This document shows positions 12,308-25,323 of a stretch of 64,000 nt of DNA, piece by piece (position 1 is the first letter of the stretch; each line of letters opens with the position of its first letter). The translations under genes and the position numbers were made by a program. The notes under the pieces were generated by a model, which saw only the letters and a program-made list of their open reading frames with translations, was not told the origin of the DNA and ran no database searches. Source of the stretch: Kluyveromyces lactis (lineage: Eukaryota > Ascomycota > Saccharomycetes > Saccharomycetales > Saccharomycetaceae); NCBI RefSeq assembly GCF_000002515.2, contig NC_006037.1, positions 682,001 to 746,000 on the forward strand, written 5' to 3'.

Positions 12308-15112
12308 ATGTCTAAGTTTTATGACGATGATGACGCTGTGGATTATGACGACGATGTACCTGATTTCCAGGACGAGGATGAATTTGACGATTATTTAAAC
12401 GATGAAGAATTTGAATTGATGAACCAGTTGTTTCCCCTGGCGAAGGAGCAATTAGCTGATTATCAGGGTTGGGATAACTTGGCCGTGAAAGTTGCGATTT
12501 TTGATCACAATTTCGAGTTAGAACCTGCATTGGTCGATTTAAAGAGAAGATTCAAGAAAAAGGGTATGTATAATTGGCATTGGACGTGGCGGTGTTTTAT
12601 ATTTTTACGTGTTTTCAGTTATGATTTCTTGTTGGTTCTTCCATGGTAAACAAAATTGGTACTAGGGGGGTCTGCCTATCTTGTATTTTATCTTCTTTGT
12701 GGACGGGAAGAGGGTTATGATATATTGTACTAACGGAGCTGGACATGTCGATTGATCATGATGGTCGTGAACGTGGTGCTTATTTGTGTTTCGGACGGGC
12801 AGCAGAAGAAAAAACAATTGACTTGATTGAACAGCGTGTATTGTATTGCATCTCTAATGAGCTATATGACTAACTAAGTATCATTTATTTGTTTGTTTGC
12901 AGAACAGAAAGTGGAAAAGAAACTATCGGCCTTAGAATTACTGGCTAGGAAACGTGCAGAAGCAAGGAATAAGGCTTCAACAATGGCACCTGCAACAACT
13001 AAGGTTTCTCTTCTGGACAAACTCAAGAACGGAGGTGGTAATGGACAAAATGGTAATCCTGTAAAAACAACTGTATCCGTAGCTAGTCGATTGCAATCAC
13101 TTAAAAGGGGACCCATTACTACTGACAATAACAGTAACGGCGCTGCAACTGCATCCTTTTCACAACCGAAAACTCACACATTGGCATCAAAATTGGCATC
13201 ACTCAGGAAAAGTAAACCTGAGGGACAGATTATAGAGAAACCCGAAGCGGAAGAAACGAACGTAGAGGTGGTCATCGAAGAAAATAAGATAGATCATGAA
13301 AAGAAAGATAAGGATGACCCATGGGTCATACTTAACCAATTGAAAGATTCAGCATATGTCAGTAATATAAACGAAATTCTGGCAATCAACAAGGTACCGT
13401 TATATTCTGGCATCTTGGAGAAACTAGAGTTTAATTCAACAACCACGAAAAGGAAACACGAAGAACTGTTTTCAGTCTATTATCCAAATACTAACAATAG
13501 AGTAGTTAAAAAACAAGCAATTGCTAACTTTAGCAAGCCATCTCCGGATGATGTCGTAATAAACCAACAAAAGGCAGCATTCGAGGTGGATAAAATTAAA
13601 GAAAAGGTCGCTGATTTATCTATACAAGATAAACAAAGTTCAAAAACTGTTGAAAAAGAAGAGGATATCAATGACGATGACGATGATGATGAGAAGTTAC
13701 CTTTTGAAGAGCCTGTTGTGAAGACTTACAAGAAGGTGAGTGTTCCTACAAAACCTAAAAATGCAATCAATATTTCTTCCTACCTCGACAACAAGAAACC
13801 TCATTTGAATTTTGTAGTTCTAGGTCACGTTGATGCAGGAAAATCCACATTGATGGGACGTCTACTATACGACGTTGGTGCTGTTGATACAAAATTGATT
13901 CGTAAGTTGCAAAAGGAAAGTGAAATGATTGGCAAGTCCTCATTCCATCTTGCTTGGGTCATGGATCAAACTTCAGAGGAAAGAAATAGGGGTGTTACCG
14001 TTGACATTTGTACTAGTGATTTTGCCACTACTAAAAGTTCGTTCACCATTGTTGATGCTCCTGGTCATAGAGATTTTGTTCCAAATGCAATTGTTGGGAT
14101 TTCACAGGCTGATGTCGCTGTTCTTTCAGTAGACTGTGGAACCGATGCATTTGAATCAGGTTTTAACCTTGATGGTCAGACTAAAGAACACGCATTGCTA
14201 GCCAGAAGTCTCGGAATTAAACATATCGTTGTTGCCATGAATAAAATGGACTCTGTATCGTGGTACGAAGGTAGATTTAACGACATTAGATCAGAATTGG
14301 CTGTTTTCTTCGAAGAAATCGGTTTCAAAGGTAACGATGTAAGCTGGGTTCCATGCAGCGGGTTAAGTGGTGAGGGTATCTTCAAAACCCCATATCCGCC
14401 ATCTCAAACTTGGTATCAGGGACCAAGTCTCGTTGGGGAACTTGAAAATGTTGCTTTGAAGCTAGCATGTGTTGATGAAAGTGTTACCAAAGAGCCTTTC
14501 CTCTTCAACATTTTGGATGTCACTCCAACTTCCAAAAATACATCCGCCATTATATCTGGTAAAGTAGAATCAGGTACTATTCAACCGGGCGAAACTATCA
14601 CAATATATCCATCTGAGCAGAGTTGCGTTGTTGATTCAATATTATGCGGCAATGACTCTCAAAAAGTGGATATTGCATTACATGGAGACTTTGTCCAATT
14701 GAAGTTGCATAACGCCTTCCCTGAAGATATTCAAGGTGGTGATTTGGCATCTATCGTTGGATTTGATATCCCAAGCTCCCAAGAATTTACCTCAAGACTC
14801 TTGACTTTCAGGCTGGATAGACCGTTATTACCTGGTACCTCGCTCATGCTCTTTAGAGGTGCTACAGAACAACCTTGTAGAATCAAAAAATTGTGTTGTA
14901 CTGTCGATAAAAGTAATCCATCTAAGGTTTTAAAAAAGAAAGTGAAGCATTTGGGTTCTCAACAAGCTGCCATAGTTGAGATCGAGCTGGTGGAGAAAAA
15001 AAGAAGAATCCCAATGCTAACATTCGAGCAAAATAAGAAGTTAGGAAGGGTGGTTCTAAGAAAGGAGGGAAGAACAATCGGAGCTGCGTTGATCAAATCT
15101 TTAGATTATTAA
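12308..15112 (+). CDS. HBS1/SKI7: HBS1/SKI7 translational GTPase, intron-containing, predicted alternative 3' splice sites
   Basis: Exon 1 (12308-12563) encodes the acidic N-terminus and helical Hbs1_N domain. The intron starts GTATGT (12564). With the near acceptor (GACTAAC 12868-12874, TTTGCAG ending 12902) exon 2 runs 12903-15112 and gives 821 residues. With the far acceptor (TACTAAC 13489-13495, TAG ending 13505) the frame is kept and the product is 620 residues, close to S. cerevisiae Hbs1 (611). The 201-residue cassette has short repeated motifs (SLLDKLK, ASRLQSLK, LASKLASLRK) and resembles a Ski7-specific N-terminal region. The GTPase core is intact: GHVDAGKST, DAPGHRDF, NKMD. Hbs1 rescues stalled ribosomes with Dom34; Ski7 bridges the exosome and Ski complex. 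YKR084C and YOR076C are the duplicated descendants. Confidence 0.9.
12564..12902 (+). other. Spliceosomal intron, near-acceptor form (339 nt)
   Basis: The donor is GTATGT at 12564-12569. The branch sequence is GACTAAC at 12868-12874, followed 28 nt after its branch A by a pyrimidine-rich TTTGTTTGTTTGCAG ending at 12902. The join is phase 1 (G|AA gives Glu). Retaining the intron leads to a stop 26 codons downstream. Confidence 0.9.
12564..13505 (+). other. Predicted alternative intron, far-acceptor form (942 nt)
   Basis: It has the same donor as the short form. A perfect TACTAAC lies at 13489-13495 inside what is otherwise coding sequence, followed by AATAGAGTAG. The TAG ending at 13505 is 11 nt after the branch A and keeps phase 1 (G|TT gives Val). 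The GAG ending at 13502 would also be in frame. The junction peptide KKKVKKQAIA resembles the KKKKTPKKPIA of S. cerevisiae Hbs1 as I remember it. Confidence 0.7.
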
Positions 15113-20532: not shown

Positions 20533-23500
20533 TTAGAAAGATGTGGGACTTGTCTCGATTGTGTTAGTTGCGTAATTGATGACACATTGGTTACCGGTTT
20601 CCTCGTTGATTTCTCCAATGATGGATTGTAACATCGTAACGTCCAAATTCGAATTAGCGAAAAGAGCAACCTCTCGTTTGACGTCGCTAGCTAATTTATT
20701 AAGATCGGTTAGTCCATGGTACATGCCATCCAGGTATGAGTCAGTGATCAATTTCTCATTGGCCAAGTTGTCGATGATTGGAAGTTCGATACTTTGATGG
20801 TAGAACTGCTGCTTGAAAAAGACCCTTAAAGTTTGTCTAACCGCATTTTCATCGGATAAGAGACACCTTCTCCAGATCTGGTACTCGCAGTACTTTTTTA
20901 CTTCAGTGGGTAACGTGTGATCAATGGCAAGGATACTCAATGCAAATCCATAAGAAGTATCTTGATTTAATAGTGTGAATAATTCTATCATATGCGGCAC
21001 TGAGAGAGATTCTCTCCTCTTCACAGCATCGCTCAAATATTTGAACAAAGTTCGATAGGTGGTAAAGTCTTTGAATAGTGGGTTGAGAGTTGATTCTTGT
21101 AGTTCTTGGGATAGAAGAATTTGCCCATCGATGAGATCTAATTCGGTTTGAATTTCGTTTAGCTTTTCAAGATCTTGAACTTCCGCGGCAAGAGCTGTTA
21201 ATTTGGCAATACTCAATTGTGCCTGTCTTTGTTTCAAATCTTGACCCAGCGATTGAGTTCCAGTAGAAATACTCAACAAAGTTGTAGTTGCTTCGTCGTA
21301 TTTATGGCAATATATGTTTCCAATCCATTTAACTTTGCCATACTCGGGACATTCTCCTAAGAACTGGTCCAAATATTCTGAATGGGTTTCACCAAACGAT
21401 TCGTAAAGATCATCCCATAGCCCTTCCTTGATATAGTAGGAAAATAAGGATTTTGCAAAGTCGTATCCGTATTTCTGGAAGAATTCATCGTATAGAGAGA
21501 ATGCGGTAATTTTTGGCAGAGATTGCAAAGTTTCAACTAAGCCTTCAAAGTCTTGGTAAAAATCTGTGATTAGAATTGAATCCTGAGACCTGTTAACATC
21601 CCTAAGGACCCTATTCCAAAGTAAATGATTTTCTTCGAAAAACTGTTTATAACTAGAATCAGTAATGGCATTTGCATCAATCCACATGGTTATTTGCCTG
21701 ACCATATAAAATAGAGACTTAACCAATAGCAGTAATTCCTCTACAAATTCTGACACAACGGCAAGATCTTCAGAGGCATGCCTTAACAAGAAGAAGATGT
21801 CATTAAGATTTTCTATTATGCTATTTGTTGTGAACCAAGGGATATTTTTTGATACATCATCTGGGCTCATCTGGAAAAGTCCATACCTGTAGCTGTTTTC
21901 ACATTCTTCTAATATGGAATGATAAACTAGTTGATTTATAAGCTTTGCGATCTGAGATTTTAACATAGTTTCATTTGTGGATTTCATTAGGTCTTTCAAA
22001 TGCTTCAAAAAGGCGCCCAATAATTCTGGAATCTTAACAATGCCGTCTGAGATAAAATCAGAATCCGATTGATAGGAACTTTCTGATAGTACTGTCTTCC
22101 AAGCTTGTGAAATAGATGTTGGTTGTTGCGGTAGTAAAGAGTACAAGCTTTCCAAACATTTTATCATTTCAAAATCAGAAATCAAGTCCAGTTTGAATTG
22201 GGAAGATGTTTGATCCAAAAAATTATGAGCAACAAATGTGAGAAGTCTTTCAAAAAGTTCGCTTCTTATTTTTAAGTGTTTCATGGGGTTGTTAGCAACA
22301 GGCGGTATGTGGTTTGATAATGCATATTTAATCTCATCACTGGACATTTGAATATCTGTTTCAATTTCTTGTGGTTGTAGATCTAGATTGTCAGGTAAGT
22401 TGAAGTCTAGTAATGAATCCGTTGATTGTCCTCCAAAATAGACGTATTGATCCACATGAGACTTTATGAATCTAATTTCTTGGAAGTCAGAGTTTTCGTA
22501 TTTTTCAAAAGTCTCCAACTTTAACGCACATGTTCTTCCATCAGTAATGTATAAGGAACTTGAATTACAATCGTACCCAAGAACTTTCATATCTTTGTTA
22601 AACCGTATAATGTCCTCCCATTTCCTTTTAAATGGATAATTAGAGTCCAATTTGGAACTTGTTTGAGTTAGGACAGCAGCATCAGAGAATAAAGTGTAAA
22701 CAGACGTTATCGGTAAATGTTCCTTGGTGTATGCAGTTGGGACTATAAGTCTTGGGGCAAATTCATCTGATAATGGTCGCGTGTATGTGTTTAATCTGTA
22801 AGTAGAGAAGATAGCGAAACTGTTAGTATCTTCATCCACAATGATGGTTGATAGTAAATAGTGCGTTTCGTTACTTTCCGCTAAGAAACTCAAGAACAAG
22901 TATGCATCCGAGTCTCCTGATAAAGGATGACAATCGAGTAGTTTCAGTGTAGATGTTGCCAAGGGGAAATGCTCTAAGACTGCCTGTGAAATTTCAGACT
23001 GTACATTTAAATCGATCTTTTTGTAACAATTCCCAACAGATGAAAGGTTCCACACCTGATATCGCCCGCCCTGGGTTAAAATAGAAACTATTCTTTCTCC
23101 TTTACCGCTGATTTCGCCCAATTTGAGAGATACCACTCTCTTTGATTTGGACATGGATGAAAAGATTCCGACTTGACATTTTATTATGGTTTGTTTTAGC
23201 GATACAAAAGGTTTCCCGTTAGCATCTCTTATAGTACAAAACTCAACACGCCCGTAATTTGTCGAAAGTAATATTCCAGCTGGTTCTGCATTAATCAAAT
23301 TCTCTACATATTCACCGTCACGTAGTTTTAAAACTGATTTATGACGTTTGGTTTGCGTCAAGAAACTTGCCACTTGACTCACAGTATCAACATCTTCATA
23401 GAATTGAATGTCACCGGATCTACTGTTCACTAAAAATAAGCCAGGGCTTGATTTCAAGTCACGTTCGAGCACACTAGGCCACGTAAAGCAACATAATGGA

Positions 23501-23853
23501 GGACGGGACCATGATTCATATTCCTCGTCATGTAATGGAATCCTTACAAAACTAGGGTGTGTTTCAGAAGATAAAAATGGCCAAACGTAAACATTATCAG
23601 TATCGCAGCATAAGGCGTACCCAGATTTTGCATCAACGCTACAACATAATTCCACATTACTGGGCAAAAAACTTAAACTTGGCGCTAACTTCGATACCTT
23701 ATACTTCCCATTCTCTGTGATAACTTGTTCATTCGAAAATTGTACATTGGTGACAGCAGAACCAGTTGTCGTTTCCTCAGCAGAGATTACTGAATCCTCT
23801 GGTGCTGCTGCTGGTACACTAAGCTCTTTCCTGAGCTGAAACAATTGCTTCAT
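20533..23853 (-). CDS. NUP133: Nucleoporin Nup133 (Y-complex)
   Basis: The 1106-residue protein has a low-complexity N-terminus, a beta-propeller-like half (repeated short hydrophobic strands to about 480) and a C-terminal alpha-solenoid. S. cerevisiae Nup133 (YKR082W) has about 1157 residues with the same layout. It is the stem end of the Nup84 subcomplex and binds membranes by an ALPS motif between propeller blades. Orientation and neighbours (DAD2, RPF2) match chr XI. Only 88 bp separate its stop from that of DAD2. Confidence 0.92.
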   Translation of the reverse strand: MKQLFQLRKELSVPAAAPEDSVISAEETTTGSAVTNVQFSNEQVITENGKYKVSKLAPSLSFLPSNVELCCSVDAKSGYALCCDTDNVYVWPFLSSETHPSFVRIPLHDEEYESWSRPPLCCFTWPSVLERDLKSSPGLFLVNSRSGDIQFYEDVDTVSQVASFLTQTKRHKSVLKLRDGEYVENLINAEPAGILLSTNYGRVEFCTIRDANGKPFVSLKQTIIKCQVGIFSSMSKSKRVVSLKLGEISGKGERIVSILTQGGRYQVWNLSSVGNCYKKIDLNVQSEISQAVLEHFPLATSTLKLLDCHPLSGDSDAYLFLSFLAESNETHYLLSTIIVDEDTNSFAIFSTYRLNTYTRPLSDEFAPRLIVPTAYTKEHLPITSVYTLFSDAAVLTQTSSKLDSNYPFKRKWEDIIRFNKDMKVLGYDCNSSSLYITDGRTCALKLETFEKYENSDFQEIRFIKSHVDQYVYFGGQSTDSLLDFNLPDNLDLQPQEIETDIQMSSDEIKYALSNHIPPVANNPMKHLKIRSELFERLLTFVAHNFLDQTSSQFKLDLISDFEMIKCLESLYSLLPQQPTSISQAWKTVLSESSYQSDSDFISDGIVKIPELLGAFLKHLKDLMKSTNETMLKSQIAKLINQLVYHSILEECENSYRYGLFQMSPDDVSKNIPWFTTNSIIENLNDIFFLLRHASEDLAVVSEFVEELLLLVKSLFYMVRQITMWIDANAITDSSYKQFFEENHLLWNRVLRDVNRSQDSILITDFYQDFEGLVETLQSLPKITAFSLYDEFFQKYGYDFAKSLFSYYIKEGLWDDLYESFGETHSEYLDQFLGECPEYGKVKWIGNIYCHKYDEATTTLLSISTGTQSLGQDLKQRQAQLSIAKLTALAAEVQDLEKLNEIQTELDLIDGQILLSQELQESTLNPLFKDFTTYRTLFKYLSDAVKRRESLSVPHMIELFTLLNQDTSYGFALSILAIDHTLPTEVKKYCEYQIWRRCLLSDENAVRQTLRVFFKQQFYHQSIELPIIDNLANEKLITDSYLDGMYHGLTDLNKLASDVKREVALFANSNLDVTMLQSIIGEINEETGNQCVINYATNTIETSPTSF

Positions 23854-24074
23854 CTTGTACTATCTTGACACTGAAAAAAAAAGCCAAAAGAATCACCAAA
23901 TGTAAAACTTTGAAATTCTAATCTCAATTGATCCACTACCTTGTTAGCCGAACCTAGCTTGACCTTGCATTGCTGTAATTATAAAGGTAAATAGACTCTC
24001 TGATGCTCATTGTTTAAAATCTTGGTCAATGTTTCTGTTTTCATTGTCGCCAAAGAAATCGTCATAAGTGATGT

Positions 24075-24192
24075 CACGTGAAACATTTTCCGCCACGTGA
24101 CTTTGGAATAGTTTCTTTTCACTTATCAAGTAACTTGGAAAATTAAATCTTTAAACTGGAACAAATCGATGCGATGAGCTAAATGCGATGAG
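24075..24192 (+). promoter_or_regulatory. Two Cbf1 and two PAC elements upstream of RPF2
   Basis: CACGTG lies at 24075-24080 and 24094-24099. GCGATGAGCTAA occurs twice, 14 bp apart (cores 24171-24178 and 24185-24192). A tandem PAC about 100 bp before the ATG fits a ribosome biogenesis gene. It is in the 435-bp gap 23854-24288; nothing else seen. Confidence 0.75.
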
Positions 24193-24288
24193 CTAAGTTA
24201 CAGTCTACATAGTTCATCTTTTGGCTCAGATTTCTATCCTATAAGGTGTAATTGTTGTGATTTGTATCAAGACACCGTAAACACCAGG

Positions 24289-25323
24289 ATGATCAGAACA
24301 GTAAAGCCTAAGAATGCCCGTGCTAAAAGGGCTTTGGATAAAAAAGAAGCAAAATTGGTTGAGAATGTAAAGCAAGCTTTATTCATTCCTGGTCAAACTT
24401 CTACCAAGTTGTTGCATGATTCAATGGTTGATTTGAGTGCGTTGAAGAAGCCTGATATCAAGAGATTCTCCAAGAAGAACAACATCAGACCTTTTGAAGA
24501 TTATGAACCATTAGAGTTTTTATCTGAAAAGAATGATACATCGCTTATGGTGTTGAGCACACATTCTAAGAAGAGAAGAAACAATTTGACTTTTATTCGT
24601 ACGTTTGGGTATAAGATCTATGATATTATCGAGTTGCAGATTGCAGAAAACTATAAACTTTTGTCTGATTTCAGAAAACAAACTTTTAACGTTGGGTTAA
24701 AGCCAATGTTCAGTTTCCAAGGTGCAGCCTTTGAACAACATCCAGTTTACCAGCATATCAAATCATTGTTCCTTGACTTTTTCAGAGGTCAGAATACCAC
24801 TTTGCAAGATGTTGCAGGTTTGCAACATATCATTTCTATCACTGTCCAAGGTGATTTCCAAGACGGTGAACCATTACCAAATGTTCTATTCAGAGTGTAT
24901 CACTTGAAGACTTACAAGTCCGAACAAGGTGGTAAGAAGTTACCTAGAGTGGAATTGGAAGAGATTGGTCCAAGATTCGATTTCAAGATCGGAAGAATTC
25001 ACACTCCATCTCCAGAAATGGTCAAGGAAGCCCATAAGAAACCTAGACAATTGGAAGTCAGAGTTGCTAAGAACGTTGAGATCGATACTATGGGTGATAA
25101 GATCGGTAGAGTGCATGTGGGTAAGCAAGATTTGGGTCAATTGCAAACTAGAAAGATGAAGGGTTTGAAGGCTAAATACGATCAAGTGGATTCGGATATG
25201 GAAGAGTACCTAGAAGAAGTTGAAGGCGATCTTGATCAAGAAAATGTCGATGACACTTACGGTGAAGAATTCGTAACGGCAACAGATATCGATGCTCCAC
25301 CTGCTAAGAAGCAAAAGAAATAA
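24289..25323 (+). CDS. RPF2: 60S biogenesis factor Rpf2 (Brix domain)
   Basis: From the ATG at 24289 (MIRTVKPKNARAKRAL) the product is 344 residues, the length of yeast Rpf2 (YKR081C). The Brix domain spans about 30-235 (FIPGQTSTKLLHDSM, LSTHSKKRRNNLTFIR, ELEEIGPRFDFKIGR). The C-terminus is acidic, then lysine-rich (PPAKKQKK). With Rrs1 it loads the 5S RNP into pre-60S particles. The frame is open for nine codons before this ATG, but those lack ATG. The tandem PAC upstream supports coordinated ribosome-biogenesis control. Confidence 0.97.
   Translation: MIRTVKPKNARAKRALDKKEAKLVENVKQALFIPGQTSTKLLHDSMVDLSALKKPDIKRFSKKNNIRPFEDYEPLEFLSEKNDTSLMVLSTHSKKRRNNLTFIRTFGYKIYDIIELQIAENYKLLSDFRKQTFNVGLKPMFSFQGAAFEQHPVYQHIKSLFLDFFRGQNTTLQDVAGLQHIISITVQGDFQDGEPLPNVLFRVYHLKTYKSEQGGKKLPRVELEEIGPRFDFKIGRIHTPSPEMVKEAHKKPRQLEVRVAKNVEIDTMGDKIGRVHVGKQDLGQLQTRKMKGLKAKYDQVDSDMEEYLEEVEGDLDQENVDDTYGEEFVTATDIDAPPAKKQKK

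Follow-up and report, generated by a model that had tools for sequence, protein, structure and literature searches.

The window analysed here is the 64 kb stretch C1:682001-746000 of the Kluyveromyces lactis genome, and all positions are counted within it. On its + strand it carries a SKI7/HBS1 gene which spans from an ATG at 12308 to a stop codon ending at 15112 and which combines a single 5' splice site with two potential 3' splice sites, a layout from which a long Ski7-type protein and a short Hbs1-type protein are predicted. Lengths are given in nucleotides (nt) and amino acids (aa). The features which define the two predicted transcripts are the following.

12308..12563, + strand: exon 1, in both isoforms, 85 codons plus 1 nt, Hbs1 N-terminal domain (Pfam, match to yeast Hbs1)
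12564..12569, + strand: 5' splice site GTATGT, phase 1 (sequence)
12564..12902, + strand: proximal intron of 339 nt, removal of which would give the long 821-aa Ski7-type form (sequence)
12728..12734, + strand: extra perfect TACTAAC within the proximal intron (sequence)
12868..12874, + strand: putative proximal branch site GACTAAC, branch A at 12873, acceptor G 29 nt further on
12900..12902, + strand: proximal 3' splice site CAG, preceded by a T-rich tract (sequence)
12903..13505, + strand: alternative segment of 603 nt or 201 codons, long isoform only, Ski7-like (frames, Ski7 alignment)
13489..13495, + strand: putative distal branch site TACTAAC, branch A at 13494, translated as N-T-N in the long isoform
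13498..13500, + strand: out-of-frame TAG, its distance of 6 nt from the branch A probably too short for use
13503..13505, + strand: distal 3' splice site TAG, in frame, 11 nt past the branch A, predicted to give the 620-aa Hbs1-type form
13506..15112, + strand: 3' exon shared by both isoforms, with a linker, translation-factor GTPase domains and the stop codon

Splice sites and reading frames

Joining 12563 to 12903 gives a protein of 821 aa and joining it to 13506 one of 620 aa, both frames being open to the stop codon. The two acceptors, the CAG ending at 12902 and the TAG ending at 13505, are 603 nt apart and the frame is kept. An earlier note on this DNA had placed the GTATGT donor at 12564, a first branch site and acceptor at GACTAAC and the CAG ending at 12902, and a second pair inside open coding frame at TACTAAC (13489-13495) and the TAG ending at 13505, with an acceptor distance of exactly 201 codons and in-frame products of 821 and 620 aa; on checking the sequence all of this proved right, the GACTAAC being located at 12868-12874.

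The proximal GACTAAC differs from the TACTAAC consensus at its first base. Downstream of the distal branch A, the TAG ending at 13505 is the first YAG at or past 10 nt, the minimum distance from branch to 3' splice site given in PMC10711555. The TAG ending at 13500 falls short of this minimum, with 6 nt to the branch A, and is therefore probably unused; as an acceptor it would lead to a stop at aa 86. Frame would also be kept by AGs which are not YAGs, namely those at 13502 (621 aa), 13517 (616 aa), 12878 (829 aa) and 12911 (818 aa). Intron retention was considered as a source of the second protein and was rejected, as translation stops after aa 113.

Coding content and copy number

The segments which identify the encoded proteins, in addition to exon 1, are these.

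12923..12955, + strand: LSALELLARKR, counterpart of the Ski7 start MSLLEQLARKR in the alignment; published motif S1 by position
13304..13591, + strand: similarity to Ski7 chain 5jea_K (E 1.2e-5), residues 134-229 when counted in the piece from 12905
13526..13552, + strand: NFSKPSPDD, conserved, motif S3 by position; begins 20 nt past the distal acceptor
13796..14383, + strand: GTP_EFTU domain (PF00009), histidine of VDAPGHRD retained (Pfam, translation)
14783..15097, + strand: GTP-eEF1A_C domain (PF22594) (Pfam)

At the level of sequence the identity of the gene is settled by matches to PDB entries. Exon 1 corresponds to the Pfam domain HBS1_N (E 8.3e-15) and matches residues 5-84 of yeast Hbs1, and for the long protein the similarity to yeast Hbs1 (3izq, 5m1j) covers exon 1 and the part from residue 316 on, with a gap between. 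The Hbs1-type GTPase is intact and has the G3 catalytic His (PF00009; VDAPGHRD). In the phmmer alignment Hbs1 is matched as far as the basic KKK that closes exon 1, and the match is taken up again at residue 316 of the long form; the claim that the junction of the short form resembles yeast Hbs1 thus holds up to the KKK and fails for the stretch after the junction, which is unmatched.

For the stretch 12905-13787, matches were obtained to Superkiller protein 7 in 8qca (E 1.3e-7) and 8qcf (E 2.8e-7), as well as to Ski7 in 5g06 (E 4.6e-6) and 5jea (E 1.2e-5). The 201 extra codons align with the N-terminus of Ski7 from its first residues onwards, which fits motif S1, and the LxxxL-type motifs that had been remarked on in the longer form find their counterpart in the alignment of LSALELLARKR with the start of Ski7. 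We take 5jea to represent exosome-bound Ski7 and the matched stretch to be the exosome-bound part. Since this match spans 13304-13591, the distal acceptor at 13505 splits it, and the short form keeps its last ~30%.

Searches of the assembly (10,729,447 bases, 7 contigs) returned one full match each for the common 3' part, for exon 1 and for the Ski7-like part, in every case this locus. Six other matches were obtained with the GTPase part and correspond to EF1A (L002), Sup35 (L003), mitochondrial EF-Tu in two copies (L004, L005) and two weak matches; these names come from reading the open reading frames, with L004 read directly and L005 named via its comparison with L004.

Distal splice signals in the genome and in related proteins

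TACTAAC occurs nine times in the 64 kb window, both strands included. Within the 35 mechanically called open reading frames of at least 150 aa it is found five times in sense orientation, compared to a mean of 3.65 in codon shuffles, and any TACTAAC appeared in 10.0% of trials when a 282-codon stretch was codon-shuffled. Genome-wide there are 144 forward and 140 reverse occurrences of TACTAAC with a YAG 2-12 nt downstream, while the reversed-pattern control is commoner (321 and 299), and for this reason the short pattern alone proves nothing. One sense TACTAAC, at 22822 of the minus strand, has a T-rich stretch and a CAG after it and sits within a 1106-aa open reading frame (20533-23853); no GTATGT, GTAAGT or GTACGT donor was found on the minus strand from 22822 to 24910, and this signal is therefore probably chance coding sequence. 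Because TACTAAC is not rare, and because the complete arrangement, in which the first usable YAG after a TACTAAC falls in phase, arose in 5.0% of the codon-shuffled stretches, the evidence from one sequence is suggestive only, a lone TACTAAC being weak.

The distal signals were followed through 141 homologous proteins, composed of the best 120 of 3713 matches and 21 further sequences. A PSPDD-type anchor was present in 99 of the 141 (90 after an 80% identity filter); the 42 proteins lacking it, which were not counted, are mostly of ~590-630 aa and have an HBS1_N domain. The long group comprises the anchored forms up to P0063, from which the short isoform P0067 was removed by hand; P0011, also marked for exclusion, carried no anchor. 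The eight Saccharomyces Ski7-type proteins were assigned by name (P0122-P0127) or by identity to the query (P0121, 99%; P0128, 64%), and eleven anchored proteins from P0129-P0140 are in no group. P0019 of the long group is from Tetrapisispora phaffii. In the long form a TACTAAC can be read through only as xTN or [LIV]LT, the remaining frame giving a stop, and a phase-1 YAG at the junction requires S, P, T, A, L, I or V followed by V, A, D, E or G.

The dipeptide Thr-Asn (TN) is found upstream of PSPDD in 33 of the 38 long homologues (32 of 37 at the 80% identity filter), as opposed to 4.6% of background windows. The Saccharomyces Ski7-type proteins have no TN at all (0/8, or 0/6 when non-redundant; own background 10.7%) yet retain FxP and NFx(K/R/N)PSPDD on either side, and this lack of TN between conserved flanks argues against a purely protein-level reason for its presence. 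A residue pair compatible with a YAG occurs at the fixed junction column in 30 of the 38 long homologues, compared to a background of 13% and to one of the eight Saccharomyces Ski7-type proteins. Because the lineages are related, a binomial figure calculated for these counts is not to be read literally, but the contrast between the long homologues and the Saccharomyces Ski7-type proteins is large, and the conservation of the internal TACTAAC, which the earlier note had proposed to check, is upheld in the form of a protein footprint. This conservation turns the suggestive single-sequence case into a strong one.

In the annotated Zygosaccharomyces rouxii protein P0067 the end of HBS1_N is fused straight to the conserved stretch preceding PSPDD, which is the short form. 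Other Saccharomycotina (P0079-P0120) have TN in 23 of 41 proteins (20/36 non-redundant; background 2.9%), and [TA]N over a longer stretch in 40 of 41 against a background of 6.5%, this widening having been picked post hoc. Searches for DNA relatives of the internal TACTAAC gave a single locus of 34% identity in viral contigs and, in a scan of genome contigs for yeast relatives, archaeal and bacterial loci among the 80 listed; none of these was used.

Probable production of two proteins from one gene

We consider it very probable that the locus is the single SKI7/HBS1 gene of a yeast that predates the whole-genome duplication, in which one donor can pair with each of two 3' splice sites. The earlier note had put forward one HBS1/SKI7 gene with two in-frame acceptors, and the proposal is supported by the identity of the gene, its copy number, the reading frames, the protein matches and the footprint in relatives. 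Splicing of donor 12564 to the CAG at 12902, served by GACTAAC and the T-rich tract, would include the 201-codon Ski7 segment and yield a Ski7-type protein of 821 aa, whose kinship suggests a role as link between the exosome and the Ski complex. Splicing of the same donor to the TAG at 13505, served by TACTAAC at 11 nt, would skip the Ski7 segment, thereby splitting the region similar to exosome-bound Ski7, and yield the 620-aa Hbs1-type ribosome-rescue GTPase. The choice of branch site would then set the Ski7/Hbs1 ratio. We infer that the cell produces the two RNAs together with their proteins, and that these serve as Ski7 and Hbs1, which would be a clear case of one gene giving rise to two RNA-surveillance proteins through alternative splicing, something uncommon in fungi.

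The precedent of a single gene in Lachancea kluyveri, invoked in the earlier note, is borne out by Marshall et al. 2013 (PMC3597508), who demonstrated alternative splicing of SKI7/HBS1 in this species by reverse-transcription PCR, western blot and complementation. As is predicted for K. lactis, there is one gene with one donor and two 3' sites, and a long Ski7-type and a short Hbs1-type form; the Ski7 motifs S1 and S2 of that arrangement lie between the two acceptors, and of these the K. lactis segment fits S1. The position of the distal of the two in-frame potential 3' sites just 5' of motif S3 is also as in that paper. The L. kluyveri products, supported by the experiments mentioned, are of 96 and 70 kDa, whereas for the K. 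lactis gene products of 821 and 620 aa are predicted here from sequence. Marshall et al. report two potential 3' splice sites in each of five pre-duplication yeasts, which are presumably the five species in the legend to their Figure S1, Z. rouxii, L. waltii, L. thermotolerans, L. kluyveri and K. lactis (long isoform listed), and the K. lactis long isoform given there is probably the product of the gene described here. The two-protein splicing arrangement is thus already published, apparently with K. lactis among the species predicted to have it; since PMC3597508 already counts K. lactis, the inference of alternative splicing in the earlier note is right but apparently not new. In Saccharomyces cerevisiae SKI7 and HBS1 are separate genes which correspond to the two isoforms and, unlike the K. 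lactis gene, are described as having no introns, as is SKI7 of other post-duplication yeasts (PMC3597508). Ski7p has also been described as limited to a subset of Saccharomyces and as originating from a separate duplication (PMC2613156).

A number of points weigh against the two-site interpretation. Dietrich et al. 2013 (PMC3737163) report an apparently single 3' site for K. lactis and others, and give the K. lactis intron as 342 instead of the 339 nt found here. Conservation was judged from protein and not DNA sequences, and the homologue counts are not independent because the lineages are related. Five of the 38 long homologues are devoid of TN, namely P0015, P0016, P0018 and two from Eremothecium (P0027, P0030), and eight of the 38 have no junction pair. 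In P0027 (E. sinecaudum) and P0030 (E. gossypii) the junction pair is present without TN, so that this pair is not maintained by splicing alone. The in-phase arrangement in codon shuffles counts on the same side, and no RNA data on K. lactis SKI7/HBS1 were found in the literature, most subscription journals being outside the coverage. As to P0027, an ILT further upstream could encode TACTAAC.

A rival interpretation is use of the proximal 3' site alone, in which case the long protein would do both jobs and the TACTAAC at 13489 would be ordinary coding sequence; this would agree with the single site stated by Dietrich et al., with the chance frequency of 5.0% and with the occurrence at minus-strand 22822 of TACTAAC, T-rich stretch and CAG in plain coding sequence. 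Such a scenario is nevertheless improbable given TN in 32 of 37 non-redundant long homologues, the YAG-compatible column in 30 of 38, and the eight Saccharomyces Ski7-type proteins without TN between retained FxP and NFx(K/R/N)PSPDD; moreover, the L. kluyveri long form fails to complement hbs1 (PMC3597508). Between the two 2013 papers that differ on K. lactis, the present evidence thus favours Marshall et al. The added value of our analysis is modest and consists of an independent homologue test which backs the two-site view, together with a testable idea on the short branch-to-acceptor spacing at the Hbs1 site.

We likewise see little chance that the proximal branch site or the intronic TACTAAC at 12728 serves mainly in a poison splice that turns the gene off, as has been suggested for Ashbya. 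Between this TACTAAC, which the earlier note did not list, and the proximal acceptor there are YAGs at 12802, 12805 and 12834, use of which would end translation at aa 108, 107 and 92, respectively; against such a role, no YAG was found within 60 nt of the branch site at 12728, and the proximal acceptor itself yields a full Ski7-like protein. A poison role for the TACTAAC at 12728 is a minor possibility. The Ashbya (Eremothecium) gossypii gene ADR221C is an orthologue with an intron reportedly at the same position, and differs from the K. lactis gene in that its two 3' sites lie close together and are separated by a stop codon (PMC3737163); the Eremothecium proteins P0027 and P0030 differ also in the absence of the distal-branch TN footprint. 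With its extra TACTAAC at 12728 the K. lactis intron resembles the two-branch intron of Ashbya.

Least probable of all is the production of the Ski7-type protein from an internal promoter and start codon in the place of the proximal splice, for which there is a precedent in Candida albicans (PMC3597508) and an in-frame ATG at 12983 opening a 709-aa open reading frame, since the proximal branch site and acceptor exist and no in-frame ATG lies between the stop ending at 12877 and LSALELLARKR, so that an internal ATG start would omit this Ski7-like motif.

Under the two-site interpretation the spacing between branch site and acceptor differs between isoforms. Deduced from protein sequences, the distal spacing comes to 11 or 14 nt for 27 of the 38 long homologues (11 nt in 14, 14 nt in 13, with at most three solutions listed per protein); six TN-bearing homologues have neither value among their listed solutions, and five more are without TN. 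It is conceivable, if on balance rather doubtful, that the isoforms differ by design in this respect, with 29 nt at the proximal site and a spacing near the lower limit (11 nt) at the distal one. A short spacing from branch to 3' splice site relaxes the need for Slu7, and a lower need would follow here only if this rule holds for the K. lactis gene. If it does, Hbs1 splicing may depend less on Slu7, and perhaps on Prp18, than Ski7 splicing does, and changes in second-step splicing activity may shift the Ski7/Hbs1 ratio. The case for independence from Prp18 is the weaker one, because Prp18 has a role in the docking of sites at 10 nt or more (PMC10711555). The short distal spacing is put forward as an idea, one not met in the literature covered.

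Apart from the SKI7/HBS1 gene, the mitochondrial EF-Tu-like gene was found twice in the assembly, at C1 ~408.7 kb (L004) and at C3 ~467.7 kb (L005), the two copies being 99.5% identical over 2756 bases; this pair may be either a recent duplication or a matter of the assembly.
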